Shown here piece after piece: positions 30,195 to 62,527 of a stretch of DNA of 64,000 nt. The first letter of the stretch is position 1. Each line of letters begins with the position of its first letter. The stretch covers positions 164,687,753 through 164,751,752 of the forward strand of contig NC_133123.1 of NCBI RefSeq assembly GCF_033568475.1, read 5' to 3'. This DNA is from Henckelia pumila. Its lineage: Eukaryota > Streptophyta > Magnoliopsida > Lamiales > Gesneriaceae. The notes under the pieces were generated by a model. That model was not told the DNA's origin. It searched no databases and was given only the letters and a program-made list of their open reading frames with translations. The translations under genes were made by a program, and so were the position numbers.

Positions 30195-30864
30195 TGTAGT
30201 AGCCCGGTTCCATTTTACAAGATTAAGTGATTTTAAACATGTTAGAAAATGACATATAATTTTAAAAGTGTCAAAACATGTTTAAGGAGTCCTTATTTGG
30301 TAAAAATAAGTGGAAAATAAGATCCGAAACGTCCGAAAATGGTGGGGTAGGTCCCGGGGGTCTTGGGGGCCCAAAACCAGTTCGGAAACATGAGAAACAG
30401 TTCGGAGCTTCCAGGCAGATAGGAGCTTCCGATCCGAGATCGGAGCTTCCGATCTCAACCAAAAACAGGTGTCGAGGAGATTTAAACATGTGGCCAGATG
30501 CAGGAGATCGGAGCTTTCGATCCTGCGATCGGAGCTTTTGATCTCGGCCGTCCAAAACGTGGCAAACATGAACCGATCGGAGCTTCCGATCCTACGATCG
30601 GAGCTTCCGATCGTGGCCTATAAATAGGCCATCCGAGAGCCTCATTTTTCACACCAAATCATATTCTTTCTCTCTCGATTTTAGAGCATTATAGGAGCTT
30701 TTTGGGGTGTTTTCGGCCTTCCTAGGCTTGGTCCGGAGGTTGGCGAGGTGCTCCAGGGTTACGGTGGAGTGGTGCCCAAGTTCTGGGGCAATCGTCATCA
30801 GTGGGCTGGCGACGGACGCAGGTATAGCTCTGACTCCTTATAGTAAATAGGGAGTATGCTATAG
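30195..30864 (+). repeat. 3' LTR of element B, first part
   Basis: First 670 bp of the B 3' LTR, with the same palindromic array (about 30390-30613) and TATA box (about 30618) as the 5' copy. It is cut at GTATGCTATAG by element D and resumes at 61692. Confidence 0.9.
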
Positions 30865-32668
30865 TGATGAAACTTAAAATTTGTAATTATTTATATGTTA
30901 AAAAGTGTGTTTTAAAATTTACGTTTAATTAAAATTATGAAGTTGTATTATTTTAGTGTTATGTGTTTATATTTAAATGTTTTACTAAAATATTGTATTT
31001 TACGGTTTGTGCAGGTTTGGTAAAAATAAAATTACTCAAGCTACAGAGGTCATAATAGAGTAATCTTAAAACCTGTAGAATCACAAAAGAGGCATCTTCA
31101 ACTTTGTAAAAGACAAGAAATTCCAAAAACTTCATTAAGATGATCAAAATAATCAAACATCAAAATGGAGACAGATTTACTTTTACTATGACCAGCTTGG
31201 AGTAAAAATATCATAAGTATTTCTTATTTTATCCAAAATGGGTGAATGAGTTGTCAAAACACATTTACAGACAAAGGGCTACGTGTTATATGTTTTGTGC
31301 AGAAGCAAAATCGGAAGTCTAAGGCATCAAACATGCCAATTAACGTTGGGTCAATGTATTGACATTCAAGGAGACAAGCACCCACCAACTTTACTATTCC
31401 ATATTTAATGAGTCTTGGACCCTTGCTCTCATTTGACCTATAAATAGATGTGTTGTATAAGCTTTATAGTGTGTAAGAGTGTAGAGAAGTCCTCATTTGT
31501 AAAATAAATATTGTGTGTGTGAGAATAAAAGTTTGAGTGTGCATATTTCTCAAGTTCAAGTATGAAATTTATTTTATCCTTACTCTTGAGTTTCATGTTC
31601 ATGGCAAGCTAAATCTTTTTATGTCAACATGAAAATGTTTCATTGTTGGTCAAGTAAGATTGTTTATATTTTGTATATTCTTCTCTTTTTCTATTTCTAT
31701 TTTGTTTTTCTAATTGATCCTTATTTGTAGGTATAATTTTGGAAGATTTGTTGTTATCTATTTACATCAAATGCTTGGTACCTTGAATGTGGTTACCTTG
31801 ATTTGTTGTCAAATATGATACAATAAATACTACAATAATTATATACTATAAATATAAGTATCTATTTATAATAAAGTCATATATATTATTTAGACGATAG
31901 CGTGACACTGTCGGTTGTTCTAAATAATATATTGTGATTTGAACTAACATTTACTTTCTCGCATCTAACTTTTACTTTATCGCAACTAACATTTACTTTT
32001 CCGCAACTAGCATTTACTTTCTCGCATATAACATTTATTTTTTCGCAACTAACATTTACTTTATCGCATCTAACATAAAGTCATATATTTTATTTAGACG
32101 ATAGCGTGGCTCTGCCGGTTGTTCTAAATGAAATATTGTGATTTGATCTAACATTTAATTTTATGTCAATTTATATTTATGCATTTATATATATATTATG
32201 GGTACCATGTATTAAATATCGGCTGATATTAATATAGTGGAAACTATATTATATGATATACTTGTTTAAATATTTAATTGTTCTTTTTATGTTTATATTT
32301 ATTCATATATATATATATATATTATGGGTACCATGTATTAAATATCGGCTAATCTGATATTAATATAGTGGAAACTATATTATATGATATACTTGTTTAA
32401 ATATTTCATTGTTCTTTTATGTTTATTCTTATTTTAGTTTCTTTTATTTATTTTTATTAAGCAATCTTAAATAAACCAACAATGAACCTTTGAAACCTTG
32501 ACAATTTTATAATTTGTGTATTTGAAGTTTCATAATAATATTTCCATCTATAATATATCATTCTAAAATTAAACTTACAACATCCTCTCCGTGGATCGAT
32601 CTCGTACTCACGAGTATATTACTTGCAGACAACCTACACTTGGGTGAATTACAAATTAAGTTGTAGCA
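30865..32668 (+). repeat. 5' LTR of element D
   Basis: 1804 bp from TGATGAAACTT to GTTGTAGCA. TATA box CCTATAAATAGATG near 31439. It contains six short tandem units of the type CTAACATTTACTTTNTCGCA (31943-32075), flanked by two copies of an ATTTAGACGATAGCGTG block, and two copies of a longer unit beginning TATTATGGGTACCATGT (about 32188-32290 and 32309-32410). Confidence 0.9.
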
Positions 32669-32748
32669 AGTTTTTGGCGCCATTGCCGGGGAGGTATAAA
32701 TTAAGTTTAATTTTGTTATTATGTAAATAGTATGTTGTTTTTAATTGT

Positions 32749-32836
32749 ATGATTGTTTGGAGTCGTAAACAAAGTGGTAGACTTGTTCGAGTAACTGAAA
32801 ATATTTTAAACATGGACGATAATTTTAATAATCAAG

Positions 32837-32931
<95 letters not shown>

Positions 32932-34921: not shown

Positions 34922-37765
34922 TATAAGGCCCGAAAATATTAAGTTCTTAATGACGGGATTTAAGATTTAAATTTCGGATATGAGAAAGTAATTATTTGAA
35001 GAAGTTACGAAATGTGAAATTTCAATTTCGGGTCAGAAATATTTAATTTGAGGATTTTCGGATTTTAAGATTTTATTATCCGGAATTCTTAAATTAAAAG
35101 ATTAAAAATATTTGCAATTGATATTTATGGAATTTAAGATGTGAATTCCAAGATGATAAATATCAAGAATGAATTCTGAGGATGGAATCCGAGAAAGGGC
35201 CAATTTGCAAATATTGAGCAATTCAGGGACTAAAATGCGATAATGTCCAAAATGATTTAATTTTAATCCAAGAATATTAATTTGAGAATATTTAGAGTTT
35301 AGACTTGAATTCTAATATTCTTAAATTATTTAGGATTGAAATTGAATTAAATCGCTTGTCCGGGGACTGAATTGCAATTAGGCCAAAGTTCAGGGACCAA
35401 ACTGCAAATTCCTTGCAACTTGGCTGAATAAAACGTGTAATCAGAAGGAAATTCATCAAATTTCCAGAAATTGGCCGAGAAAGGAGGAAAGAAAGGGGTT
35501 TCAACCATTTTTGCCTTTTTAAGTCCCGCTTAAATTCAATCCGCCCGGTAGAATTTTCGATTGATCGTATATTTGCGATCACAGCTCCGAGTGCTACGTT
35601 TTGACGTAAGTTTTATGAAGTTCTATCATGTTTGAATTCTAAGTTGTTGTTAGAATTAAGATTTGATTGTATAAACATGTTCTAGCATATACGACGATAG
35701 TATATCTAAGACGGATAGAGAAAAGATCGTCGTTTGGACATGTTTTGAATTAAAAGATTTTTCAGAAATCTGATTTATATGGATGATAGTCACGTGTATT
35801 GGCTGCTGAAATTTTTGATATTATTTTGCTAAGGTGGTAATTATATTGGTGTTTAAGCTTTTGGAACAATTGAAATCATATCGTTACGCCGCCGGTTCAA
35901 GATTTTGAATTGGTATTCATTATATATGCTTAAAGCTCATCCTCAAGTGTTTAGTGGATGAATTGAATATGAGATTGAGTTTAGAATGAAGATAGAATGA
36001 TATTTGAATCGAAAGATTTATCGAACTCGAATAGTTGCGATGTCAGTTTGAATTTCGATTGTATTAGCAAGATTTGAACTGTATCAGCTTTAAAGAAACA
36101 TCGATTCAGATTGGAAATTGATGTTTAGATATGATATAATCTATTTCAGATTTGAATTGAAGATTATCAAAGTTGAATCAACGAGTTCGAGTTCGAATGA
36201 CTTGAAGTGTTTGAAGTTGAATCAAGAATACCTTCAAGTAGCACTGATTGAAATAAGCAGAATTTGATGTCTGATTTGGACAGCTTGTAGTTGATCAAGA
36301 AGTGACAGAGTGTCAGTTATTTGAATCAGAAATGCAGGTATGAATAGACATTAATAAGTTGGGCAGAATAACTCGAAATAGTTTTGTTCATCGAGTTGCC
36401 TAAAATCACATACTTGTCTATTTGTATATATGTCATGGTTTAAGTTTACATAAATGAGATAGATTATTCAAGATAGCTATTTTCTTGAATTTCCCAGAAC
36501 ATTTATGTAAATGTTTACCTGTTTAAGCTGATTTGTAGTATTTTCTGTATTGAACATGTTTTACATGTTTTATGAGATGTTTACAGATTTATTGATATAC
36601 TTATGTGATTAGATGCTTTGCTTTGCTTAGTTGGTTTATTTGAGCTAGTGTTCAAGGTGTTTTATAGCTTTTAATGCATACAGCTTATGTTGCATTCATC
36701 TTGAACTCCAGCCTTAATAGCACAGAGGGCAGTCATTGCCTAGAGTGCAGATGACGTTTGGAGAGCTGTAGTGAGTGGCATGGAATGTAGATTTATTTCT
36801 AGAGTCAGATTGACTCATGACACGGAATATGGATTTATGTTCAGAGCCAGAAGACTCACTATAGTTGCACCAAAGTCAGAGGAGTAAAATACTTGATGCT
36901 GCCTCGAATGGGAGTGTCGGTAGTTTGAGAGCTATTTTATTCCTTGGGATCCCAAAGAACCAAGCTTTATTGATATCAGCTTTGCTAGCCTATTCCTTGG
37001 CACATGCATTGCATTTATGCATTAATCTAGAGACTTCTATGGTTTAGATTATGCGTTTATAAATGCTAGCATGTTATGTTTATTCAAGATGTGAATTAGT
37101 TTATATGTTTAAATGATGTATATGCATGCTATTCATACTGAGATTTATTCTCACCGGAGCTATCCGGCTGTTGCTTTGTTTGTATGTGTGCATTGCATCA
37201 GGTTGGGGGCATGATCAAGCTAGAGTTGGCTTGGATAGCATCAAGAAGAGTTTTAGAAAGTGAGGACTCGGGTTTTAAGCAGATGAAATGTATTGTATGC
37301 AAACATGTTAGAAAACAAGGAATCTTGTACATGTTGTTATGTGGTAAATCCTAGTTTATATTCATGAATTGATGTATTTATGAGTTAGGATTTATTTGTT
37401 AATACATGTGTATTATTTGACAGCTATTTGTTGCAGCAGATTTCCAGAATTTGGAGCCCGCTCGATCGGTTAAATCCCGCGGATCGAGCGAGGCCTTTAT
37501 TTTCCAAAAACAGAGAATCAAGCTTTGTTGCTCGCTCGATCGGTAACATTTCACCGATCGAGCGAGGCCAAAAAATGTTCAGATCGAGAGCAGGTTATTG
37601 TTGCTCGCTCGATCGGGCAAGTTTTACTGATCGAGCGAGGGGCTCATTTTAAAAAAAAAATAAAAAATTTTTAGCTCTTGGTTTGAATATTCTTTTATGC
37701 TATGATTAATTGTTTATTAATCTTTGATTGCCCTAAGATGAGATTAGCAACCCGAGGTCCCCACA
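34922..37765 (+). repeat. 5' LTR of element G
   Basis: About 2.84 kb, beginning TATAAGGCCCG and ending GAGGTCCCCACA. By eye I count only about 18-20 differences from the other copy, so insertion was recent. Three GC-rich inverted repeats (37459-37490, 37531-37566, 37604-37639) lie 125-310 bp before its 3' end. Confidence 0.9.
37531..37566 (+). repeat. Perfect 14-bp hairpin in LTR of G
   Basis: CTCGCTCGATCGGT, an 8-nt loop, then ACCGATCGAGCGAG. This is the middle and most perfect of three such hairpins about 73 bp apart. The same three recur in the other LTR near 43977-44009, 44047-44083 and 44121-44156. Confidence 0.85.
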
Positions 37766-40700
37766 ACAGGTGGTATCAGAGCATAAAGTCTTGGACTAAG
37801 ATAGAAGTCGAGCGGGGTAGATTGAGTCGCATGCATTTATAGTATTGCATGAATATGCTTTACTTGCTTTACAGAATTGTATGCAACTATGATTACTTGA
37901 TTGAACACTACTTGCTTTATTGAGATAAGAATTACATGATTATATGCTGATATGTATGCCTGATTTCTTGAATTCATTAGCATAAGTGAATTCGTTGCAA
38001 GCATGTATTATTTGAAAAAGCATGATATTTTGCAAGTATGTGTTCTATTCAGAAGCATGAGATTATATGTATGTTATACTGCAATAGTATTTTATAATCT
38101 CTGCCATATATATTGCTTCTGTTATCAAATAAGACAGGTTGTGCAGATAGCATAAGAACCTCAGATAGAACAGAATAGCAGACAGCACAGAACAGTGTTG
38201 AGGTAAGTGTTTGAGTCGATTGCACTGAGGAGTACGTTAGTTGAACAACTCCAAAGCTATTGATCACCAACTCAGAAAGATACAGCATATGCTATGTCTA
38301 GAAAGGGGTTAATGTGAAAAGCTGGATCAGTTGTTCAAGAGAAGCATATTCAGATAAACATAGAATCAGCTTAATTTTATATCAACTCCAGGACTTAGCA
38401 AGAAGTTGGTGAAGCCAGAAGAAGTATTGAAATTGTTTGGCAGGTAAGTAAACAGAATTGTTTCTTTCCGTGTATGCTAAAGAAGATAGAACAGTAGACT
38501 TTGCAGAATAGAAGCATAAGTTGATTCCAAGCCAGTAGTAGAAGAACAAAATCATGAACCGGTAGTATGAGGCAGAGTTGAATTTTTATTCACGCCTCTG
38601 TAATTGTGGAAACACTATGATCATCACCTCCATGAGAAATGTCCATAGCAGTATAGCTATGAAGCAAGAAATAGTGACAACAACAGCAAAGATTGATTCA
38701 GCCTCAACACCAGCAGATGAAGAAATATAAGCATAGTTCCCCTAGCTGAAACAGATCAAGAGAATAGTGGAATGACAGATAATTGCATAGGCAATAAGCA
38801 AGTACAGAAAATGAGGCTCAAGTTGTATCAGATAAGAAGATTATAGGTAAGTGAATTAATTCTAGTTAACCACTTATGTATTGATAGCATAGCATACATT
38901 CATAGATAAGTGATTTGTTATGCTATAATATGTATCTGATGAGCCTTTATTCCTCGTATTTGCTGAGATTTTGTCTTTAAGTAGATGGAATGCATGTGCA
39001 AGATTAGTCATAAACGATAAAATACAGAATTGAGGAAATAAGATAGAATGTACTGATATCAGATGTGGGATATTAAGCTAGCAATTTGTGCAATGCTAAA
39101 GCAATAAAAATTCATAGAAATGTATGATATGAGTTTCAGACATTAAATTTTGTTATTTCGGTACTGATTATATCACGATGATCGTGAAATAATGTCAGTA
39201 GAAGTCTAGTCGATATACTGAACTAGTACAGCATTAACCTAGAATTGACAGCTATGTCAGTGGTTAGAATGTACAGAAATAGTTCAATTGCCTATTTCGA
39301 CTTTTCTACGACATGAATGCAATTTTATATAGAATGGTGTCTAATACGAAAGTATTATGACAACTTGTATAGAAGAGTATTACTTGATCTGAAGAATTTT
39401 AGAAACAGCTAGCAGATTGAGTAGAAAAGAATTATGTAGTACCGAAATGAAAATTAATTCTATGACAATAAGTTATGTCAACAAGATGCTATTCGACTAT
39501 TGTCAGCTAAGAATTAATAAAGGAACTCATATTAGTAGAGAATAAGAAAAATCAGTTATAGTTGAGCTTTATCTTCAATTTTGCTGAAGCTATTACATCA
39601 TAGAAATCATGATTCTTGAATTTCTTGATATCAATGCAGAGGTTGTATTCTTTGACCTCAATTGATATTGATTGACTCTTATTCTTGCTAGAGTCTACTT
39701 TGATTCACTCACTGTCATTCAGAATATTTGATTTTGACTGACATTTCCTTGAGCGAGTTCCTTTGTTTGGAAATTTGAGAATTCTTGATGATTTGATGTA
39801 TTTATTCAGTGTATCTTGAAGTATTTGGCTCGTAATTGATAGAAATTCAAATTCAGACCATCAGCAAGATTTCTGGGTTTTAAAAAAAATTGATGGATTT
39901 ATTGGGTGCAGATCTGTATTTGTTGTAATTTTATGCTTGACAATATTTAAAAGGATCAGAATTGTTGCGATCCAAGCTAAACTCGATTGGTTTGGAAAGA
40001 TAAAAGCAACATTGATCTTAGATCAAGCAATAGACTATTGATTGAGAATGCAAGATTAAGATATGAGATAAGATAGCAGAGCAGAACAGATGAATTTTTG
40101 CGGTGAATAATCGTTAAATTATGCTAGATATTCTAGATACGGAATATCAGATTCGAAAAGAAACATATGACAACAGATTGAATATCTATTCAGTTGTCTA
40201 AACATGTATGATTTACATGTAATCATGAATTAAAATTCGTATTGGTGAAATAAATGAAAGCAGATACGACAGAATTGACGTTACCAATATGAGAATTCCA
40301 GTAAAAGAAGCAGAAAATAAGAACTCAAGTGATTTATGTAACAGATTAGTTACATAAGAGTTGAAGGAAGATCAATTTGTAAAAGACTTTCGTTCGAATC
40401 TACTCGAATTTTTATGAGTTTGCAATTTAGATTGTAGTTGATTTCGACAGATTCAAGAATATGGTGTAGTAGATATGATACAACCATAAAAGATACTGGT
40501 TATGCATTAGCAAGATGATCAGATTACAGGAATGATTGAAATCTATTGTCGAGATAGAGACTTTAGATTTATTCTCTAGATTGTGGCATTGATTGTCATA
40601 TATTCTGAGTGTTTGGATTGTATGAGATTTCAGTATACCATCCTCCGATTAATGGATTATCAGCTGTGATTATCCAGATTTCTGAGGATATACTCAAAAT

Positions 40701-41435
40701 TATAGTACTAGATTCGGTACTAGTTGATTGATTATTTGCCACTTGATTACTATGATTCCTGTAAGAGCTCTTGAATAGCTATAAAGACAGTATTTGGATG
40801 ATTGATTGATCAGAAACACAGAAATGTCTTTATATTGAAATGATCTTTCAGAACTATCAGCTATCAGACCAGCTATGAGTCAAGAAACTATAGAAAATGG
40901 GAAGATTACTTTGAACAGAATAAGAATAGAACAGCAATGACAGAGCTAGAAAATGAGCAACAGATATAGAGATTTGAAGTCTGAACAGAATGATCAATTT
41001 AGAAATTCTTTTCCAAGCATCATTAGATTCAGAAAGAGATTTCAGAATTGATTTCTATGAGTATTTGATCTAGCTTATTGATTAATACTCACAGTATCAG
41101 ATAGATGAATTGTTAACCATATACATTGGCTGAAGAATATCAGCTAGAACATGTATGTGCATTCAATTCAGATGCAACAGAAGTTGATAAGATTATATGC
41201 AAGACAGAGTAATTGATGCAGAGTTAGATCTAAGTTGACTCAGTGATTATATATATTTTGCAGAAGTGATTAGAAAGAAGAGTAAGATGTGATAGAAGAG
41301 AAGATATCAGACAAGATATCGACAGCTCAGAGAATTGAAGTTAATATTAATTCAGTCAGCTACACAGCTTACAAGAATCAACAGTAAGATTGAATGCGAT
41401 TTCGAGGACGAAATCATTCCTTAGAAGGGAGGAAA
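37766..41435 (+). other. Non-coding internal region of element G
   Basis: About 3.7 kb between primer-binding site and polypurine tract, with no gag or pol motif on either strand and no long open frame. It carries the marks of a large retrotransposon derivative that depends on proteins from elsewhere. Confidence 0.75.
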
Positions 41436-44281
41436 TGTAAGGCCCGAAAATATTAAGTTCTTAATGACGGGATTTAAGATTTAAATTTCGGATATGAGAA
41501 AGTAATTATTTGAAGAAGTTACGAAATGTGAAATTTCAATTTCGGGTCAGAAATATTTAATTTGAGGATTTTCGGATTTTAAGATTTTATTATCCGGAAT
41601 TCTTAAATTAAAAGATTAAAAATATTTGCAATTGATATTTATGGAATTTAAGATGTGAATTCCAAGATGATAAATATCAAGAATGAATTCTGAGGATGGA
41701 ATCCGAGAAAGGGCCAATTTGCAAATATTGAGCAATTCAGGGACTAAAATGCGATAATGTCCAAAATGATTTAATTTTAATCCAAGAATATTAATTTGAG
41801 AATATTTAGAGTTTAGACTTGAATTCTAATATTCTTAAATTATTTAGGATTGAAATTGAATTAAATCGCTTGTCCGGGGACTGAATTGCAATTAGGCCAA
41901 AGTTCAGGGACCAAACTGCAAATTCCTTGCAACTTGGCTGAATAAAACGTGTAATCAGAAGGAAATTCATCAGATTTCCAGAAAGTGGCCGAGAAAGGAG
42001 GAAATAAAGGGGTTTCAACCATTTTTGCCTTTTTAAGTCCCGCTTAAATTCAATCCGCCCGGTAGAATTTCCGATTGATCGTATATTTGCGATCACAGCT
42101 CCGAGTGCTACGTTTTGACGTAAGTTTTATGAAGTTCTATCATGTTTGAATTCTAAGTTGTTGTTAGAATTAAGATTTGATTGTATAAACATGTTCTAGC
42201 ATATACGACGATAGTATATCTAAGACGGATAGAGAAAAGATCGTCGTTTGGACATGTTTTGAATTATTGAAAGATTTTTCAGAAATATGATTTTTATGGA
42301 TGATAGTCACGTGTATTGGCTGCTGAAATTGTTGATATTATTTTGCTAAGGTGGTAATTATATTGGTGTTTAAGCTTTTGGAACAATTGAAATCATATCG
42401 TTACGCCGCCGGTTCAAGATTTTGAATTGGTATTCATTATATATGCTTAAAGCTCATCCTCAAGTGTTTAGTGGATGAATTGAATATGAGATTGAGTTTA
42501 GAATGAAGATAGAATGATATTTGAATCGAAAGATTTATCGAACTCGAATAGTTGCGACGTCAGTTTGAATTTCGATTGTATTAGCAAGATTTGAACTGTA
42601 TCAGCTTTAAAGAAACATCGATTCAGATTGGAAATTGATGTTTAGATATGATATAATCTATTTCAGATTTGAATTGAAGATTATCAAAGTTGAATCAACG
42701 AGTTCGAGTTCGAATGACTTGAAGTGTTTGAAGTTGAATCAAGAATACCTTCAAGTAGCACTGATTGAAATAAGCAGAATTTGATGTCTGATTTGGACAG
42801 CTTGTAGTTGATCAAGAAGTGACAGAGTGTCAGTTATTTGAATCAGAAATGCAGGTATGAATAGACATTAATAAGTTGGGCAGAATAACTCGAAATAGTT
42901 TTGTTCATCGAGTTGCCTAAAATCACATACTTGTCTATTTGTATATATGTCATGGTTTAAGTTTACATAAATGAGATAGATTATTCAAGATAGCTATTTT
43001 CTTGAATTTCCCAGAACATTTATGTAAATGTTTACCTGTTTAAGCTGATTTGTAGTATTTTCTGTATTGAACATGTTTTACATGTTTTATGAGATGTTTA
43101 CAGATTTATTGATATACTTATGTGATTAGATGCTTTGCTTTGCTTAGTTGGTTTATTTGAGCTAGTGTTCAAGGTGTTTTATAGCTTTTAATGCATACAG
43201 CTTATGTTGCATTCATCTTGAACTCCAGCCTTAATAGCACAGAGGGCAGTCATTGCCTAGAGTGCAGATGACGTTTGGAGAGCTGTAGTGAGTGGCATGG
43301 AATGTAGATTTATTTCTAGAGTCAGATTGACTCATGGCACGGAATATGGATTTATGTTCAGAGCCAGAAGACTCACTATAGTTGCACCAAAGTCAGAGGA
43401 GTAAAATACTTGATGCTGCCTCGAATGGGAGTGTCGGTAGTTTGAGAGCTATTTTATTCCTCGGGATCCCAAAGAACCAAGCTTTATTGATATCAGCTTT
43501 GCTAGCCTATTCCTTGGCACATGCATTGCATTTATGCATTAATCTAGAGACTTCTATGGTTTAGATTATGCGTTTATAAATGCTAGCATGTTATGTTTAT
43601 TCAAGATGTGAATTAGTTTATATGTTTAAATGATGTATATGCATGCTATTCATACTGAGATTTATTCTCACCGGAGCTATCCGGCTGTTGCTTTATTTGT
43701 ATGTGTGCATTGCATCAGGTTGGGGGCATGATCAAGCTAGAGTTGGCTTGGATAGCATCAAGAAGAGTTTTAGAAAGTGAGGACTCGGGGTTTAAGCAGA
43801 TGAAATGTATTGTATGCAAACATGTTAGAAAACAAGGAATCTTGTACATGTTGTTATGTGGTAAATCCTAGTTTATATTCATGAATTGATGTATTTATGA
43901 GTTAGGATTTATTTGTTAATACATGTGTATTATTTGACAGCTATTTGTTGCAGCAGATTTCCAGAATTTGGAGCCCGCTCGATCGGTTAAATCCCGCGGA
44001 TCGAGCGAGGCCTTTATTTTCCAAAAACAGAGAATCAAGCTTTGTTGCTCGCTCGATCGGTAACATTTCACCGATCGAGCGAGGCCAAAAAATGTTCAGA
44101 CCGAGAGCAGGTTATTGTTGCTCGCTCGATCGGGCAAGTTTTACCGATCGAGCGAGGGGCTCATTTTAAAAAAAAAAAAAAAATTTTTGGCTCTTGGTTT
44201 GAATATTCTTTTATGCTATGATTAATTGTTTATTAATCTTTGATTGCCCTAAGATGAGATTAGCAACCCGAGGTCCCCACA
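41436..44281 (+). repeat. 3' LTR of element G
   Basis: About 2.85 kb from TGTAAGGCCCG to GTCCCCACA, nearly identical to the left copy. Short open frames inside it recur unchanged in the left copy and are not genes. Confidence 0.9.
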
Positions 44282-44286
44282 ATTAC

Positions 44287-47200
44287 ATAACGAAATTCCA
44301 GTAATATTGGGACGTCCATTTCTAGCACCTTCAAATGCTTTAATTAATTGTCGAAATGGAATAATGAAATTGTCTTTTGGAAATATGACTTTAGAACTTA
44401 ATGTGTTCAATTTATGTAAACAACCAAGTATTAATGAAGATGAAGATGATATTGCAATAGAAACAATCGTGGAAGAAAATATACACCAAGAAAACTTAAA
44501 TCAACAATCTGAAGTTTGTTTAGTGGAAAGTTTTGATTCAAAAAATGTTTTTAAATCAAAGTTATTTGAAGAAATTAATGAACTTGAAGAAGTAAAAGAA
44601 AATGATCATCCAAAACTTGAATTAAAACCCTTACCAATAGAACTAAAATATGCTTTTCTTGGTGAAAATCAAACATATCCTATTGTAATATCTTCTACCC
44701 TCTTACCAAAACAAGAAGAAGATTTAATAACACTACTTAAAAAACACAAAAATGCAATTGGATGGTATAAAAGGTATAAATCCTTTAATCTGCACACATA
44801 GAATTCACTTGGAAGAAAATGCTAAAACATATCAACAACCACAAAGAAGATTAAATCCACACATGAAAGAAGTTGTTAAAAATGAAGTTTTAAAACTATT
44901 AGATGCCGGAATTATTTATCCAATCTCGGATAGTAAATGGGTAAGTCCAACACAAGTAGTACCAAAAAAATCAGGCATCACTGTTATAAAAAATGAAAAG
45001 GGAGAATTATTACAAGCTAGGATTCCATCTAGTTGGCGTATGTGCATTGATTATAGAAAATTAAATGATGCAACTAGAAAAGATCACTTTCCGTTACCAT
45101 TTTTAGATCAAATTTTAGAGAAAGTGGCAGGTAATCCTTATTATTGTTTTCTTGATGGGTATTCGGGGTATTATCAAATACCAATATCATTAGAAGATCA
45201 AGAAAAAACTACTTTCACTTGTCCGTTCGGAACTTTTGCTTTTAAAAGAATGCCATTTGGTTTATGTAATGCCCCGGCTACTTTTCAAAGATGCATGCTA
45301 AGTATTTTTAGTGAATGATTGAAGAATTTATGGAAGTTTTTATGGATGATATAACTGTTTTTGGAAACTTATTTGACTGTCTTAAAAATTTGGAAGAAGT
45401 TTTAAAAAGATGTGAAGAAAAAAATCTTGTTTTAAATTGGGAAAAATGTCACTACATGGTTAAATCCGAAATTGTGTTAGGGCATGTCATATCTGAAAAA
45501 GGAATTGAAGTTGATAAAGCTAAGGTTGATGTTATTGCTAATTTACCATCACCAAACACGATCAAAGAAATTCGATCATTTTTGGGTCATGCGGGATTTT
45601 ATAGAAGATTTATAAAATTTTTTAGCATAATATCAAAACCAATTTCAAATCTTTTAACAAAATATGCACAATTTGAATGGACTCAAGAATGTGAAACTGC
45701 TTTTAAAAAGATAATTAATCTTTTAACTACATCACCTATTTTACAACCTCCTGATTGGTCTTTACCATTTGAATTAATGTGTGATGCAAGTGATTATGCT
45801 GTAGGAGCCGTGTTAGGACAAAGAAAAGAAGGTAAACCTTATGTGATCTATTATGCAAGTAGAACCTTAAATAGTGCTCAAATCAATTATTCAACAACTG
45901 AAAAAGAATTACTTTCAGTAGTGTTTGCATTAGATAAATTTCGATCCTATTTAATTGGTTCTACTACTATTGTTTACACTGATCATTCTGCCATAAAATA
46001 TTTGTCAAATAAACAAGATGCTAAGCCGAGATTAATAAGATGGATTTTGTTGTTACAAGAATTTGATCTTGTAATAAAAGATAAAAAAGGAAAAGAAAAT
46101 GTAGTAGCCGATCATTTATCAAGAATAATTTCTGAATCATCTCAAAATGAAATACCAATAAATGAAAATTTTCCGGATGATCAACTATTTTATGCTACTA
46201 CTATGCCTTGGTTTGCTAATATTGTAAATTTTCTTGTGACAAATAAAATGCCTTCTCATTGGAGTTCACAAGATAAAAATAAATTCTTGAAAGAGGTCAA
46301 AAAATTTTATTGGGATGATCCTTATTTGTTTAAGTATTGTCCTGATCAAATTTTTCGACGATGCATACCAGACAATGAGGTAAGTAGTGTCATTAAATTT
46401 TGTCATTCTGAGGCATGTGGAGGTCATTTTTCGTCAAAGAAAACAGCTACAAAAATCTTTCAATGTGGATTTTATTGGCCTTCTTTATTCAAAGATACAC
46501 ATTCATTTTGCAAATTTTGTGAAAATTGTCAGAAAATGGGTTCAATTTCAAAATGAAACATGATGCCTTTAAATCCAATCATGATTATTGAAATATTTGA
46601 CAGTTGGGGAATAGATTTTATGGGTCCATTTCCATTATCTTTTGGATTCACTTATATTTTAGTGGCTGTCGATTATGTTTCAAAATGGATTGAAGCAATT
46701 GCATGTAGAACTAATGATCATAAAGTTGTGATAAAATTTTTGAAAGAAAATATTTTTAGTCGATTTGGAATACCTAGAGCTATAATAAGCGATGGGGGAA
46801 GTCATTTTATAAATAAATCATTTTCTTCGTTGTTAAGAAAATATGGTATTACACATAAAGTTTCTACTCCATATCACCCTTAAACGAATGGTCAGGTTGA
46901 ACTTGCAAATAAAGAAATAAAACAAATTTTGAAAAAAACAGTCAATCCAAATCGAAAAGATTGGTCGTTAAGATTAAGTGATGCATTATGGGCATATAGA
47001 ACTGCATTTAAAACATCATTGGGGATGTCACCATATAGATTAGTTTTTGGAAAGCATTGTCATCTACCTGTTGAAATTGAACATAAATCTTATTAGGCAA
47101 TTAAAGCGTTTAATACTAATTTAGATGATGCATCTAAATTAAGAAAATTGTAATTAAATGAACTAGAAGAATTAAGAAATGATGCATATGAAAATGCAAA

Positions 47201-47492
47201 GATTTATAAAGATAAAACAAAAGCATTTCATGATAAAAATATTATGAGAAAATCTTTTGAAATCGGACAAAAAGTTTTACTTTATAATTCTCGCTTGCAT
47301 TTGTTTCCAGGAAAACTTAGATCGCGATGGTCTGGACCATTTATTGTTAAATTTGTCTATCCTCATGGTGCTGTTGATGTTGAAAATCCTAAAAATAATA
47401 ATGTATTTAAAGTTAATGTGCAAAGACTTAAACCGTTTATAGAAAATGAAGTTCTTAATGAAGAGTTTATGCCTTTATATGATCCAACTTAA
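44287..47492 (+). pseudogene. Element D pol: protease end, RT, RNase H, integrase (broken)
   Basis: Resumes the protease as IPVILGRPFLAPSNALIN. Reverse transcriptase: RMCIDYRKLNDATRKDHFPL, FKRMPFGLCNAPATFQ and a FMDD box ([14 protein letters not shown] near 45330). RNase [40 protein letters not shown]. Integrase: zinc-binding H/H/C/C region ([11 protein letters not shown]), core [12 protein letters not shown] and [10 protein letters not shown], and a C-terminal domain to about 47490. Breaks: frameshift near 44765-44790, frameshift near 45312, and stops at 46555 (TGA), 46881 (TAA), 47095 (TAG) and 47152 (TAA), several of them C-to-T or G-to-A type. Pol is dead. Confidence 0.88.
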
Positions 47493-47640: not shown

Positions 47641-48192
47641 ATGGATGAAGCTATCAAAAAACTTGGTAAATATTTTCCATCTATTTCTAAAAAAGTTCTG
47701 AGAATGATTTATGAAGGCAGATGTGAAAGATTGAGAATGCTTATGCAAAAAGGAATCCCGGAGGATATTCGTCTTATAATTGAAGCCAAGGTTCGATTAG
47801 GTGGTGAAGTTCCAAAATTCTTACTTGTTCGAAATATGTCTGGACTAGGTAAAAGTACCTATGCGAAGAAAAGAAGGGCTAAAATGTTAGATGTTTGTCA
47901 TAATTGTGCCAGATGGACTTGTAATAGACAATGCAGATCTTTGGGATATTTTTCCACAAATAGAGAAGATAAAATTGATTTCATTAAGAATGGGCTGAGT
48001 AAAGAGTCATTAGATGATATCTCATTGACTCTTGAGACGCATTCTAGTGGAGATGTTCAAGGTCAACTTCTCCGTTTATGGAAACTATTCCAAGCGCAGC
48101 GTCATGGTAATGGTCTTGGGAATCTGACTAAAAAAGATCCTATTTGCCAATTTATAAGAAAATTGGATGGTAAGCCAACCCTCGACTCATAA
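47641..48192 (+). CDS. Cysteine-rich basic protein, possible virus-type nucleic-acid-binding protein, in element D
   Basis: Intact 183-aa frame starting MDEAIKKLGKYFP, located after pol and before the LOG gene. Residues 35-60 (MQKGIPEDIRLIIEAKV) look helical. The core at residues 68-98, SGLGKSTYAKKRRAK then a C-X2-C-X4-C-X3-C cluster (Cys86, 89, 94, 98), joins a basic nuclear-localisation-like stretch to a putative zinc-binding site. This G..S.YA..RRA...C..C layout resembles the small cysteine-rich nucleic-acid-binding proteins of carlaviruses, which act as silencing suppressors or transcription regulators in plants. The last 80 residues match nothing I know. No membrane segment is seen, so it is not an envelope protein. 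Its function here is unknown. The similarity is by eye from one motif region. Confidence 0.7.
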   Translation: MDEAIKKLGKYFPSISKKVLRMIYEGRCERLRMLMQKGIPEDIRLIIEAKVRLGGEVPKFLLVRNMSGLGKSTYAKKRRAKMLDVCHNCARWTCNRQCRSLGYFSTNREDKIDFIKNGLSKESLDDISLTLETHSSGDVQGQLLRLWKLFQAQRHGNGLGNLTKKDPICQFIRKLDGKPTLDS

Positions 48193-48380
48193 ATATTGAA
48201 GGAACACTGTGAGCCACAATCACATCACTGTTTATACACATGCATGTTATTATTATATATTATTGTTTTTTACTATTTTCATCATTTTGTTCACATCTGT
48301 ATTCCTATTTCTGTCTTATTCCTTGTTTTCCTTATAAAATCACTCAACTCTCTCTATATTTTTGAAAAGAAAAAAAAAAC
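48193..48380 (+). promoter_or_regulatory. Pyrimidine-rich spacer before the LOG gene
   Basis: 188 bp, strongly T- and C-rich (48240-48360), ending CTCTCTCTATATTTTTGAAAAG, then a run of A and the LOG start codon. The tract and terminal AG could serve as a second splice acceptor that makes LOG the first frame on its own RNA. Confidence 0.35.
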
Positions 48381-48965
48381 ATGACAGGATCTTCTTCACA
48401 AAAATTGAAAAATATTTGTGTCTTTTGTGGTTCTAATACTGGAAAGAATGAAATATTTGTTGATGCAGCAATTAATCTTGGAAAAAAGTTAGCAGAGAGA
48501 AAAATTCACTTGGTTTACGGAGGAGGCAATATTGGGTTAATGGGATCTATTTCAACAGCAGCTCATCTTGGAGGTAGTCAGGTTTTGGGTATTATTCCTA
48601 CAGCTTTAGCTGAAGGAAATATTACAGGTGTTACGGTTGGGGAAGAGTTGAAAGTTTCATCAATGTACGAGAGAATAACTAAAATGATAGAAAATTCTGA
48701 TGCTTTTATTGCCTTACCTGGTGGTTTTGGTACTTTAGAAGAAATTTTTCATGTTGTTTCTTGGGCACAACTTAATATCCATAATAAACCTGTTGGCTTG
48801 TTGAATATCAATAACTATTATGATGGTTTGTTAACTTTTCTTGATGTAGCCGTGGAACAAAATTTTATTTCAGAAAATTCACGAAGGATGCTCATCTCTG
48901 CTTCGAATGAAGACCAATTAATTGATGATCTCCAAGCTTTTGTTATCAACCTGATTCGGCTATAA
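48381..48965 (+). CDS. LOG: LOG-type cytokinin riboside 5'-monophosphate phosphoribohydrolase carried by element D
   Basis: LOG enzymes release active cytokinin bases from their riboside monophosphates in one step, in the cytosol and nucleus. This 194-aa intact frame begins MTGSSSQKLKNICVFCGSNT and has the full LOG fold signature: VYGGGNIGLMG (residues 45-55), Arg98 in the MYERITKM helix where active enzymes have the catalytic Arg, and LPGGFGTLEE (112-121), the PGGxGTxxE motif with Glu121. WAQLNIHNKPVGLLNINNYY follows the plant type. Plant LOGs are usually somewhat longer (about 200-230 aa) and have several introns; this one has none, which suggests capture from a spliced RNA. The Lys after the catalytic Arg in many plant LOGs is Ile here. 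It lies between pol and the 3' LTR of D, in sense orientation, 188 bp after the cysteine-rich gene. An ordinary host gene is unlikely given this position. Confidence 0.9.
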   Translation: MTGSSSQKLKNICVFCGSNTGKNEIFVDAAINLGKKLAERKIHLVYGGGNIGLMGSISTAAHLGGSQVLGIIPTALAEGNITGVTVGEELKVSSMYERITKMIENSDAFIALPGGFGTLEEIFHVVSWAQLNIHNKPVGLLNINNYYDGLLTFLDVAVEQNFISENSRRMLISASNEDQLIDDLQAFVINLIRL

Positions 48966-50065
48966 CAAAGATCAATTGGTCTCAACCAACCAGTAAAAAA
49001 AGAAAACTGGATCATTGATTCAACATGTCACGAAAAGGTTTGTGTTTGTTCCTCATCTTCAATAAATTTCAGGTGATATCTCTTTCATCATGTACTCTTT
49101 ATTTTTCTTTAAAAAAAAATTGTCATATTCAGGTTTGGGGGAGGGTTTATTTTTAAAAAAAAATATTAAAAATTTTAAAAAAAAAATATTTCTATAATAA
49201 TATATATTTTTCATTTTTTAATGGCAGAGTAAGGAGTCAAAAACTCCTGACACGCATTAGTTTTTATTTATCATATTATCACAATAGATTAGATTTTAAT
49301 ATTCCGTATATATTTAAATTGCAAACTACTAAGAAAATGAAGTCTTTTTGTATAGATTTTTATTTATTCTTCTTTTTATCAATTTAATAGAAAATATGTA
49401 ATTGATGGGATATAAGTTATAAATAATATATAATTGTGTGTTTTCAAATAACATATTTTCTAAAACTTTTATGAGTATATAATTAAAGTGATATTGATTG
49501 AATGAATAATAACATGTATAATTGAGGGAATTAATTTGCAAAAGTGCAATATTTACTCACATAAATTTTGTGAGTGAGAGGTGAGAATTGAGAAAACAAC
49601 TTATAAGCTTTTATTGATTATTAAGAAATGGTTGATTACTAGATTAAACCCATTTAAAAAAAAAAAATTATTGTGCATATGAAAATTGGCTGCAAAGATT
49701 GTTTGAAGTTTGATTGTAAAGATGTAGAGTATTAATATCTCTACTATAATTATCAATGTAATAGATTTACCTCATAAAAAATAAACAAATAAATAAACTT
49801 TGAAAAAAATATATGTTACATTTTCAAAGTTTATTGGAGGTATTTGGGTATGTAAAAACAATTTTGCAGCCAAGCAAAAAAGAGAAAAATAGAAAAAAGA
49901 AAAAAAAACAAAATAAAAAAAAAACAAAATAAAAACAAAATGGGTTTATTCTTTGTAAATTATCCTATCTTATTTTCAATATTAGGTTATTTGATTGTCT
50001 GCTTTACATATTAACCATTTTCAATGAGTGTATAATTTTATTCCAACTCCATGAGTGAAAACTAG

Positions 50066-50483: not shown

Positions 50484-51237
50484 TGATGAAACTTAAAATT
50501 TGTAATTATTTATATGTTAAAAAGTGTGTTTTAAAATTTAAGTTTAATTAAAATTATGAAGTTGTATTATTTTAGTGTTATGTGTTTATATTTAAATGTT
50601 TTACTAAAATGTTGTATTTTATGGTTTGCGCAGGTTTGGTAAAAATAAAATTACTCAAGCTACAGAGGTCATAATAGAGTAATCTCAAAACCTGTAGAAT
50701 CACAAAAGAGGCATCTTCAACTTTGTAGAAGACAAGAAATTCCAAAAACTTCATTAAGATGATCAAAATTATCAAACATCAAAATGGAGACAGATTTACT
50801 TTTACTATGACCAGCTTGGAGTAAAAATATCATAAGTATTTCATATTTTATCCAAAAGGGGTGAATGAGTTGTCAAAACACATCTACAGACAAAGGGCTA
50901 CGTGTTATATGTTTTGTGCAGAAGCAAAATCGGAAGGCTAAGGCATCAAACATGCCAATTAACGTTGGGTCAATGTATTGACATTCAAGGAGACAAGCAC
51001 CCACCAACTTTACTATTCCATATTTAATGAGTCTTGGACCCTTGCTCTCATTTGGCCTATAAATAGATGTGTTGTATAAGCTTTGTAGTGTGCAAGAGTG
51101 TAGAGAAGTCCTCATTTATAAAATAAATATTGTGTGTGTGAGAATAAAAGTTTGAGTGTGCATATTTCTCAAGTTCAAGTATGAAATTTATTTTATCCTT
51201 ACTCTTGAGTTTCATGTTCATGGCAAGCTAAATTTTT
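50484..51237 (+). repeat. 3' LTR of element D, first part
   Basis: Starts TGATGAAACTT like the 5' copy, from which it differs at few sites. It includes the TATA box (GGCCTATAAATAGATG near 51056) and is cut within a T-run by copia element F. It resumes at 60639. Confidence 0.9.
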
Positions 51238-53082
51238 TGTTGGAGAACCCGGCGATCAGATCAATCAGGATTGATACCCGGTGCAGCGGAAGTTTAAAAT
51301 TTTTATATGGAACAATTCCATAATGGGTATCAACCTTACGATTAAATTGTGTGTGTAAAAATTAAATAACGATTATAAATTTTTACCTCCAATCTCGAAG
51401 CGAGATTATGGACACCAACAGATTGCTCTGCTCTTGTTGTATATCCCTGGAACTGATGGACGAACTGTTCTTCAATCATGTCCACGAACGGATATTTAAT
51501 CCCTCTGATAGATTGCACTAGAAAATCTATCAGAAGTTTCTACGAAGAGATTAACGAATTTGATCCGTTAAACCAGACTGTAATTCAAAATTCACAGACT
51601 GGATTTTACCGAGCAGAGGGGAGAGGGGGTCGGCCACTTCAGAGGAAAATCACTAGGGTTTTTCGAAAATTTTGTGACCTGTTGTATGTAATTTCTATAC
51701 TGCAATAACTTATTTATAGTGTAGGCCACTAACAGCTTAGGGCCCATTAGTCGTAAGTTCAAGCCCGACAAGCAAAGCCCGCATGTTCAAAAATTAATAT
51801 AAAATTCATCATGACTCCGATTGATAAACCGATTTCACCAATGTGCACAGAAACCATTTCTACACCTTTTAAAGTCAAGATAAATTTTTCTGAATCCGAA
51901 TTCAGTGATTTCCAAAAATGCCCATCCCTATGTCATTTTAGGAAATCTTACTCCTCTACTCATAATTAAGAAGTCCAACTTCTTTTTTCATTAAATTTAA
52001 CTCTTTAAATTTAACTATCTCAATGGGGATTAAAAATCCATTACTTTGTGTGACCCTCAATGGTTCAGGGATACAGCTAGCCGTGGGCTCACAACTCCTT
52101 GTGACTCGGAACAACAATTTCCGACTTGCCCATCGAATCATGGTAAGAGTGCCTAGCAACATCGCCCCATGATTCCCTAGGTATCACTGATAGTGCCTGC
52201 AAGAACCAATAGATTTTGGTTAGCGTACAGTACGGTCCCTTCATCCATATATCCCGATCGAATCAACAACCATTGGTAAATCGAGAGTCGTTCGAGATTC
52301 GATAACTATGCAATACATCTTGAAGATCAAATAGTGACATCGCATGTGTTACTAAGAAACCATTTCTTAAAACACATCATGTACTCTGGCCAGAGATTCG
52401 TCACACTAATATCTCCTCAGATCGCATAGGATATCCACACTCGCAAGTATGTGGTGAATCCTTGACAACAAAGCATCGACTCCTATATGTGTTGTAACTG
52501 TACCCAATCCCGACACCTGATGACCCCAATAGAGTCGGTAAACGAGTCAAAGCACAGTACTAGCATATAGAGTCTCAATGATGTTTCAAGTAGTAAGGAC
52601 TAATGGTGTACAACCAAAACCGCGGACTTTATCCACTCGATAAGTGATAACCACTTGGAAAGTCCGGATAGGGTAGTTCGATCATTCATTGTATGAATAT
52701 CCATTTGCATGCTTCGAACATCTCTATGTTCCTTACCAATGAAACGTGGTACTCTGCATTGCAAATTCTAGTCTCAAACTCGAGCGATCCTTATCCTTAT
52801 TATCGGACGGCTCAATCGACTAGGAACAGTTTAGAATATACAGTGACTATAAGATGTGTTTCATGATAGACATCTCCATGTTCTACCACATCTTACATAC
52901 ACTATAGTATATTCAAGGTCTTTATCAAAACAACAATAGTATATCACAATATAACAATATGAAGAAAGATAAAGTCATTGCCATTAATAAAAGTGTAAAT
53001 TATATTAAACAAAAGATTGTTTATACAAAGAGTCATCAAAGCCCTTAGCCACAAGTTGGCTCACCGGGCACCCACTCTTTCA
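51238..53082 (-). repeat. 3' LTR of copia element F
   Basis: 1845 bp, TGAAAGAGTGGGTGCC to GGGTTCTCCAACA on the minus strand. A TATA-like ACTATAAATAAG lies near 51709-51720 on that strand. Confidence 0.9.
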
Positions 53083-53096
53083 ATCTCCCACTTGCC

Positions 53097-56000: not shown

Positions 56001-57011
56001 AATATCTCCCACAGCTTTAGCTTCAACTCTGGAACTATTTCCGAGCCTCAGCTGGGTCTCACCCATTCTAAGCCTGCGACTTATTGTCATCACCTGCAAA
56101 TCATTGCAAATGTGAGATCCACATCCGGTATCCAATACCCAAGAAGTTGTATTAAGTGAAACATTTATTTCAATATAGAACATACCCTTCGCAGTTCGCA
56201 ACTGCTCTAGATATTCCTTGCAGTTACGCTTCCAATGACCGGGCTTCTTGCAGTAATGGCAAACATCCTTGGATTTTTCCATGTTTGAAGCCTTTGTCTT
56301 GTACTTCTTCTCGGGTTCGATTTTCTTGGGTGGGGCAGAACGCTTCTTACCCTTTGTACTTGGCCCCTTCTTAGCAGAAGAAGAGGAGCCCACCAAGAAA
56401 GCCGGTTTATCCTTCTTTAATGTGGATTCATATGTCACAAGCATATTAACCATCTCTTCAAGGGAGGCCTCTATCTTGTTCATATTAAAATTCACCACAA
56501 ATCCGTCAAACGAAGAAGGAAGAGACAGAAGTAGTAAGTCCACGTTGAGTTCATGCTCCAAAACCAAATCAAGGGTTACCAACTTCTGTATGAGCCAAAT
56601 CACTCGTACCCCATGATCACGGACCGAAGTCCCTTCACGCATGCGACACGTCATTAGCTCCTTTACAGTAGCGAACCTTTCAGCCCTCGATTGAGCCCCA
56701 AAAAGTTCCTTGAGTTGTACGTGAATGTCAGCAGCATTCACGGTGTCCTCAAATCGCCTCTGGAGTTCATCAGACATCGAGGCTTGCATATAGCATTTGG
56801 CCTTGATATCATGGTCCCACCATGTATCAAGTTTGGCTAACTCTTCCGGACTTATGTCAGCTGGTGCTTCCTTCGGAGGAGATTTTTCTAACAAGTAGAG
56901 CATCTTCTCCGAAGTCAAGACAATCTTCAACTTACGGAACCATTCCGTATAGTTTGCGCCAGTCAACTTATTTTGTTCGAGGATCGAGAAAAGTGGATTA
57001 CGCGAATTCAT
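53097..57011 (-). pseudogene. Copia element F gag-pol polyprotein, two point stops
   Basis: One continuous frame of about 1300 codons from MNSRNPLFSILEQNKLTG. Gag has the zinc knuckle CHYCKKPGHWKRNC. Protease: WVLDTGCGSHIC. Integrase: HARLGHISS, CESCLKGKM, then core D (HTDVCGPF), D (RSDRGGEY) and E (GVSERRNRT). Reverse transcriptase: WKxxx-type start (CKWIYKRKLGPDG), LDVKTAFL-like QMDVKTAFLNGDIKE and YVDD (LYVDDILLIG). RNase H: GYTDSSFQSD, TTEAEYIA. It ends GLRSMTSWL. Only two defects are seen: TAA at 54297-54299 in RT and TAG at 53661-53663 just before RNase H, both single-base changes in an otherwise unbroken frame. It is a young element, recently disabled. I do not assign a copia lineage. 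Confidence 0.92.
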
Positions 57012-60633: not shown

Positions 60634-60638
60634 TTTTT

Positions 60639-61691
60639 TTTATGTAAAAGTGAAAAGGTTTCATTGTTGGTCAAGTAAGATTGTTTATATTTTGTATATT
60701 CTTCTCTTTTTATATTTCTATTTTGTTTTTCTAATTGATCCTTATTTGTATGTATAATTTTGGAAGATTTGTTGTTATATATTTACATCAAATGCTTGGT
60801 ACCTTGAATGTGGTTACCTTGATTTGTTGTCAAATATGATACAATAAATACTACAATAATTATATACTATAAATATAAGTATCTATTTATAATAAAGTCA
60901 TATATATTATTTAGACGATAGCGTGACACTGTCGGTTGTTCTAAATAATATATTGTGATTTGAACTAACATTTACTTTCTCGCATCTAACTTTTACTTTA
61001 TCGCAACTAACATTTACTTTTCCGCAACTAACATTTACTTTCTCGCATATAACATTTATTTTTCCGCGACTAACATTTACTTTATCGCATCTAACATAAA
61101 GTCATATATTTTATTTAGACGATAGCGTGGCTCTGCCGATTGTTCTAAATGAAATATTGTGATTTGATCTAACATTTACTTTTATGTCAATTTATATTTA
61201 TGCATTTATATATATATTATGGGTACCATGTATTAAATATCGGCTGATATTAATATAGTGGAAACTATATTATATGATATACTTGTTTAAATATTTAATT
61301 GTTCTTTTTATGTTTATATTTATTCATATATATATATATATATATTATGGGTACCATGTATTAAATATCGGTTAATCTGATATTAATATAGTGGAAACTA
61401 TATTATATGATATACTTGTTTAAATATTTCATTGTTCTTTTATGTTTATTCTTATTTTAGTTTCTTTTATTTATTTTTATTAAGCAATCTTAAATAAACC
61501 AACAATGAACCTTTGAAACCTTGACAATTTTATAATTTGTGTATTTGAAGTTTCATAATAATATTTCCATCTATAATATATTATTCTAAAATTAAACTTA
61601 CAACATCCTCTCCGTGGATCGATCTCGTACTCACGAGTATATTACTTGCAGACAACCTACACTTGGGTGAATTACAAATTAAGTTGTAGCA
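60639..61691 (+). repeat. 3' LTR of element D, second part
   Basis: Resumes after the T-run TSD of F, repeats the CTAACATTTACTTT tandem units (about 60964-61096) and the two TATTATGGGTACCATGT units, and ends GTTGTAGCA followed by the TATAG duplication. Confidence 0.9.
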
Positions 61692-62527
61692 TATAGTGTA
61701 GTTAAGGCTTCTAGAGTAAAGTGGTAACTCATGAGTACTTTGCATTGTAGTGCGGACGGTAGGCTTGGACATAATGCTGGTCTAGCTTGCCTAGTGTATG
61801 AGGTACGAAAGTATTATTCGAGATATCCAGATTGAGTATGCATGTATTATGTGTTTGCATGGATTATGTGATTGCATGTTTTATATGCCTTTATATATAC
61901 AGCATGTCATGACTGTATGTTGCATACATGATCATATTGAGCTTTTACCTTAGAGGTATCCTGTAGTAGGGCGCTCACCCTACGAGTTTGTGGATGGTTG
62001 GATACGTAAGTCTTGTGTCAGGTCACCTTATGGTTGGACACATGTACTAGTATCAGGTCACCATTATCCACTGGGTATATGAGCCAACTCCTGATGCAAT
62101 GGCGCAGCGTGCTATATACCCTGGGCCCGGTCTATGAGCTTGCTTCTTGACCTGAGAGTCTTGGTACCCAGTTCACTTGCATACATGCACACATAACACC
62201 ATATACTCATACTCTCGTACTGAGCTTATCATGCTCACGTCCCGTACTTTGTCGTATTTGGACACCCTATTCCACGGGGCAGGTCTGCGGCTGGACGATA
62301 CGGGTGGTTCCAGGAGAGCTTAGGCGATGGAGGACCAACAGGGTTATTGTCTAAGCTTTTGTTTCAGTTGTATTTGGGTTAATACACTGGTTTTATTCGA
62401 TATGGTTGTAAACAATATTTTTTATTATTGTTTAAGTTTTCGCTGTTATTTCTGATATTTTATTTGATTAAGTTAAATGCATGCTTAAGCTTCTGATTAG
62501 TAGGTGATCATGGTGCGGGTCACTACA
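61692..62527 (+). repeat. 3' LTR of element B, second part
   Basis: Continues the B LTR from TATAGTGTAGTTAAGGC to GTCACTACA, matching the last 830 bp of the 5' copy. ACAG follows, which is the 4-bp match to the left flank of B. Confidence 0.9.

Follow-up and report, generated by a model that had tools for sequence, protein, structure and literature searches.

A retroelement of Henckelia pumila was found to carry two sense-strand frames between its pol region and its 3' LTR, an NABP-like frame followed by a LOG-like frame. The two probably represent a conserved accessory gene set of a retroelement lineage in which the specificity of the LOG-like protein has changed. We consider it very likely that the LOG-like gene belongs to an accessory gene family of such a lineage, and on balance we favour this family reading combined with an altered specificity. 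The window, which is the whole stretch of DNA that was analysed, comprises 64,000 nucleotides, and all positions refer to it. The retroelement is called element D, and its features are listed in Table 1.

Table 1. Features of element D and of the frames that it carries
Feature	Position	Strand	Basis
5' target-site duplication, TATAG	30860..30864		sequence; equals 61692-61696
5' LTR of element D	30865..32668	+	97.9% and 98.5% identity to the two 3' LTR pieces
Primer binding site TGGCGCCATTGCCGGGGA	32675..32692	+	sequence, just after the 5' LTR of D
gag and start of protease of D, 731 open codons	32731..34923	+	PF03732, E 3.2e-18
Nested LTR element interrupting gag-pol of D, outside the cargo	34924..44282		two 2.84-kb repeats, 99.3% identical
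pol of D (RT, RNase H, integrase), broken	44283..47492	+	frames and domain matches
NABP-like frame of 183 aa with a basic block and a zinc-finger-like C-x2-C-x4-C-x3-C pattern	47641..48192	+	PF01623 and PF05515 profiles
LOG-like frame, 194 aa; Arg98 and Glu121 kept, Lys to Ile99, Glu to His124	48381..48965	+	Pfam, solved relatives, alignment
Family-like C-terminal tail QPDSAITKINWSQPTSKKRKLDH, out of frame in this copy	48947..49018	+	comparison with relatives
3' LTR of D, piece 1	50484..51238	+	self-comparison
3' LTR of D, piece 2, split off by a copia element	60637..61691	+	self-comparison
3' target-site duplication, TATAG	61692..61696		sequence

Structure and class of element D

The LTRs of D have the termini TG...CA, and the 5-bp duplication TATAG was found at both flanks. 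When the window was compared with itself, the sequence that flanks D was detected a second time at 17227-18747. Since this second copy is free of D, the element represents a single insertion. Gypsy gag-pol frames lie near the second copy at 18826-20955, and D was inserted within a copy of another retroelement.

The domain order gag, protease, RT, RNase H and integrase of gypsy elements was found in D, with a weak match for the protease that was below its cut-off in the profile scan. The pol region contains six lesions, namely four stops within the frame and two changes of frame. A second RNase H or a chromodomain gave no match in the scanned pieces of D, which cover the broken pol except for 47097-47153. 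The Athila ORF-1 domain was not found among the D frames scanned, and it is absent from most Athila elements. The primer binding site is presumably of the tRNA-Asp type, which we take to be the usual type in Athila. D is an Athila-like Ty3/gypsy element, where the name Athila rests on the domain order, the presumed type of the primer site and the extra frames at the 3' side. tRNA-Asp is listed among the primer tRNAs that are used by non-chromoviruses (PMC6317226).

An earlier note on this DNA had described a LOG-family frame within an Athila-like element, in sense orientation and located between pol and the 3' LTR. The frame itself and the structure of D agree with this description, as the last pol frame ends at 47492 and the 3' LTR starts at 50484.

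Other insertions and repeats were observed in and around D. In the nested LTR element within gag-pol, no stop-to-stop frame between its repeats is longer than one of 80 aa on the minus strand (frames of at least 80 aa were considered), and the insertion resembles a non-coding, non-autonomous (LARD-like) element. The copia element within the 3' LTR of D occupies 51238-60636 on the minus strand; its LTRs are 98.6% identical and its coding part is in three frames. A run of about 35 TAA units at 32826-32931 in the gag of D translates, in the sense frame, into a long stretch of asparagines. A palindrome of 214 bases, with a 79% match to its own reverse complement, is located at 13712-13925.

The LOG-like frame and its relatives

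The LOG-like frame was matched in the Pfam scan by PF03641 (E 4.2e-39) and PF18306 (E 3e-13), and the best solved relatives of its protein are AtLOG3 (E 1.3e-62) and AtLOG8 (8.7e-57). Both the PF03641 domain and the PGGxGTxxE motif are present, and the match to the LOG family is far past chance. The fuller aligned relatives have 209-217 aa. The window protein, with 194 aa, follows them up to about residue 188, after which it continues with six unrelated residues and ends. The gene had been called intact in the earlier note, which was not confirmed: in comparison with its relatives, the sequence leaves the frame past about residue 188, and a family-like tail is found in another frame at 48947-49018. 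Inspection by eye of the bases directly before the ATG (48330-48380) showed TATA-like sequence and then a CT-rich part, which could serve the gene as a promoter of its own.

We then considered whether the open frame is informative. When seven lesions were spread evenly over the 6594 coding bases, none was found in the NABP and LOG core with a P of 0.27, and the open LOG frame in this copy of D is therefore no evidence of selection. With the same model, the P for no lesion in gag-protease was 0.06. When substitutions alone were simulated, 79% of the copies remained without a stop after 1% change and 61% after 2%. Since many copies stay stop-free under these conditions, the open frame was rejected as a proof of selection. 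At 63-73% protein identity, 2-6% of the frames were still stop-free, a value to be read against a protein database that is biased to open frames. The LOG-like frame of D very probably belongs to a long-standing accessory gene of an Athila-like retroelement lineage, and this copy of the gene is decaying.

Searches with the LOG-like protein revealed a plant family of relatives, and a comparison of viral contigs with the LOG alignment gave five distant loci (28-33% identity), which were set aside. In the LOG-like protein search 7979 of the 8000 scored candidates were at E <= 0.001, and the best 120 were used. Among these best 120 of 7979, the relatives are multicopy and belong to several plant orders; 25 rows are loci that lie on 13 sequences of Reevesia pubescens, and another 9 are loci on 8 sequences of Diplodiscus. 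The spread over many sequences in Reevesia and Diplodiscus is as expected for a dispersed repeat. Copy number and a published survey suggest that the relatives are element-borne, which is seen directly for D itself and is given by the survey for Citrus and Populus.

For comparison, 120 host LOG proteins were taken from a search with an AtLOG3 fragment; the named ones are mostly LOG1 or LOG3. The tree was built with rows chosen by hand, namely 38 of the 121 TE-like rows (P0097 was not among them), 18 of the 120 host rows and an AtLOG8 fragment; the host side of the comparisons consists of LOG1/3 and one LOG8 fragment only. All 38 TE-like rows were on one side of a 100/100 branch, with the 18 host rows and the AtLOG8 fragment on the other. 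By sequence, the LOG-like relatives are a group separate from the host LOG1/3. The nearest listed relatives of the window protein show 89% and 80% identity and have the same tail, compared to roughly 60% identity for the AtLOG3 type. Its closest named neighbour in the tree is P0010 of Primulina eburnea, which is termed LOG3-like by its source, and P0020 of Populus also carries a host LOG name. Because members of the group are labelled as host LOG genes, counts of cytokinin genes may be inflated.

Substrate pocket, C-terminal tail and the NABP-like neighbour

In the LOG protein of C. glutamicum, R99 and E122 are proposed as catalytic residues and K100 helps to hold the adenine. Its prenyl site seems to be formed by M96, H97, K100, E125 and W129, which are described as identical in AtLOG3, rice LOG and Claviceps LOG (PMC4979012). 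The corresponding positions were counted in 118 LOG-like rows, consisting of P0001 and 117 of the 120 listed; P0002, P0005 and P0027 were dropped by length. The catalytic Arg was kept in 115 rows and the catalytic Glu in 114. At the position of K100, 114 rows had Met, Leu or Ile and only 4 had Lys. At the position of E125, His was found in 57 rows, Gln in 53, Glu in 5 and another residue in 3, so that the Glu was replaced in 113 rows and by His or Gln in 110 of them. The H97 position had His in only 44 rows; M96 was retained in 108 and W129 in 117. In the host LOG1/3 proteins, His, Lys and Glu were all retained in 120 of 120, and the pocket Lys and Glu were also present in the five solved LOGs that were compared (of 17 matched).

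The window protein lacks both the Lys and the Glu of the adenine/prenyl pocket and has Ile99 and His124 in their place. The earlier note had seen every LOG hallmark in this protein. This was confirmed for Arg98 and PGGFGTLEE, but the Lys that follows the Arg and the Glu three residues past the motif are replaced. Since the replacements are few in kind, whereas a dead gene should vary freely, the pocket appears to be changed but still constrained. From these residues we lean towards an altered substrate specificity of the LOG-like enzyme. Pocket residues alone cannot give the activity, because wheat LOGs with identical critical residues are reported to differ in their products (PMC11593424).

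The earlier note had proposed a normal LOG function. Whole copies would then free active cytokinin from iPRMP or tZRMP, leading to more division in the meristem and to new insertions that reach the germline. The retention of the catalytic Arg and Glu and of the PGGxGTxEE motif is consistent with this, and four rows (P0054, P0072, P0091 and P0097) have retained the host-like pocket Lys and Glu. In the tree, which is without P0097, the first three of these fall outside the cluster of the remaining 35 TE-like rows (support 100/100 for that cluster; next fork 91/69). Against a normal function speaks that two substrate-pocket residues are replaced almost family-wide, and according to the text on the C. 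glutamicum enzyme, alanine at the AMP-binding or catalytic residues, with the exception of Ser19, almost abolished the activity (PMC4979012). The pocket thus leaves the claim of an active-cytokinin product unsupported, and we regard a normal LOG as unlikely.

At the C-terminus, a basic block together with LxLxL was found in 86 of the 120 listed LOG-like rows and in none of the 120 host rows, one of which has a basic cluster. Among the rows of at least 205 aa, with P0054, P0072, P0091 and P0097 excluded, LxLxL was present in 89 of 102. The subclade of the window protein (P0003, P0004, P0010 and P0013) has the basic block and no LxLxL. Nuclear entry is a frequent role of basic clusters, and LxLxL has the form of the EAR repression motif.

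The changed pocket and the new conserved tail would also fit a protein that is not an enzyme, i.e. a nucleotide-binding scaffold whose tail recruits a co-repressor or some other protein to a target. Such a scaffold would not need the catalytic Arg and Glu, yet these are kept in nearly all rows, as counted above, and the scaffold is in our view quite improbable.

Upstream of the LOG-like frame lies the NABP-like frame, which is absent from the earlier note. It was matched over 29 residues by PF01623 (Carla_C4) with E 4.9e-5 and 23.6 bits, which is above the cut-off of 20.9, and over 84 residues by PF05515 (Viral_NABP) with E 3.1e-4 and 21.2 bits, which is under the cut-off of 23. Among 288 candidates, 228 relatives were at E <= 0.01, and the named ones within the best 120 of these 228 include Populus, Xanthoceras, Acer, Rhamnella and Orobanche. 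In 95 aligned members, Carla_C4 was detected in 82 and Viral_NABP in 80 at E <= 0.001 (best 1.1e-8), the C-x2-C-x4-C-x3-C pattern in 83 and the basic block in 82. The predicted structure had a pLDDT of 50.8 with 14 rows and of 68.4 with 95 rows, which is of moderate confidence. By these profile matches the protein is of the carlavirus/vitivirus nucleic-acid-binding type and belongs to a large plant family.

In the Rhamnella protein P0208, an NABP-like part with 61% identity is fused, by annotation, to an integrase C-terminus that is 77% identical to that of D. Because P0208 joins the two, the position behind pol is shared. LOG-like and NABP-like entries may occur together on 2 contigs (0.13 expected, P 0.0067), where the pairing is only by equal source and length. 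For this, 29 LOG and 48 NABP entries on a single contig of at least 1390 bases were taken from the best 120 rows each, and rows with two sources were entered twice.

The viral type of the NABP-like frame and the betaflexivirus replicase-like sequence that is reported for cucumber (PMC3136472) would be in line with a joint arrival of the two frames as a piece of an integrated betaflexivirus equipped with a LOG gene. This origin is very improbable: no other viral domain was found among the surrounding frames scanned, the NABP-like part of Rhamnella is also behind an integrase C-terminus, and the search of viral contigs with the NABP alignment gave 67 pattern matches with none encoding a relative. 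Least probable of all and refuted in the main is that this copy of D took up a host LOG transcript passively and only once, the outcome against which the earlier note had set its view. The intronless frame and the decaying copy would speak for such a capture; against it stand the close relatives with the same tail, the 100/100 branch that separates them from host LOG1/3, their occurrence as a multicopy family across several plant orders and the cargo in print for Citrus and Populus elements (PMC9289625).

Proposed role and comparison with known systems

For the conserved two-gene set that we prefer, a function can be outlined. In copies with a whole frame, we infer that the LOG-like product would be a nuclear nucleotide 5'-monophosphate phosphoribohydrolase with an altered substrate preference, and its tail may dock a co-repressor of the TOPLESS type. 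Carlavirus p12 is described as a transcription activator in the nucleus and a silencing suppressor in the cytoplasm (PMC7588395); by analogy, the NABP-like partner might act as a nuclear activator and small-RNA suppressor. As a pair, the two proteins would relax silencing and bring the host cell into a state from which the element profits. This joint mechanism is less likely than not and is put forward tentatively. Somewhat more doubtful is its boldest form, a host-manipulation set in an angiosperm retroelement lineage, in which a virus-type small-RNA suppressor and transcription activator would be combined with a nuclear, co-repressor-tied LOG that is re-tooled for another N6-modified adenylate. 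If true, this would be a retrotransposon that furthers its spread by altering how the host cell metabolises hormones or modified nucleotides.

For the extra-ORF proteins of plant retroelements, any domain match is reported in 21.4% (PMC6317226). For both extra frames of D, recognisable relatives exist whose activities can be tested, and in one of the two, specific substrate residues are altered across the family. The pair bears on whether plant retroelements and RNA viruses exchange silencing-suppressor genes.

Two Athila-like elements with similarity to LOGL4 are reportedly mentioned in the abstract of Steinbauerova et al. 2011. A 2022 survey of 121 angiosperm genomes lists a YgdH (LOG) domain in the Gypsy consensus of Citrus sinensis and C. 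clementina and, with the filter off, of Populus trichocarpa, in agreement with the 2011 report of Steinbauerova et al. (PMC9289625). LOG cargo in plant Gypsy elements as such is already known, and the remark in the earlier note that no LTR element with this cargo had been described is overtaken by these elements in print. In the open-licence literature, no report was found of an NABP-like gene in a retrotransposon, nor of the LOG-like pocket change or tail, the queries being ones that did not name pocket or tail.

The Citrus and Populus elements resemble D in having a LOG-type domain as an extra cargo of a plant Ty3/gypsy element. They are from other plants, and the survey's account of them contains no pocket change, tail or NABP-like partner (PMC9289625). 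Athila elements with extra ORFs at the 3' side are likewise non-chromovirus gypsy elements that have additional sense-strand frames located after pol and before the 3' LTR; the domain named there is Athila ORF-1, which is reported for 16% of the Athila elements and is unlike the frames of D (PMC6317226, PMC7264820). An extra enzyme acting on modified adenine is described for orchid Gypsy elements with an AlkB m6A demethylase, which differs in being a dioxygenase of an unrelated fold whose activity was shown in vitro by its authors (PMC9289625). With AtLOG3 and AtLOG8, the kin of D share the fold family, the catalytic Arg and Glu and the PGGxGT motif, but differ in the replaced pocket Lys and Glu, in the C-terminal tail and in forming a separate group. 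The NABP of carlaviruses and vitiviruses, e.g. p12 of chrysanthemum virus B, likewise has a Cys cluster behind a basic block, and the profile matches of 82 and 80 of the 95 members are significant, whereas the version in D is multicopy in plant genomes, is located behind an integrase gene and, with 183 aa, lies mostly outside the matched part.
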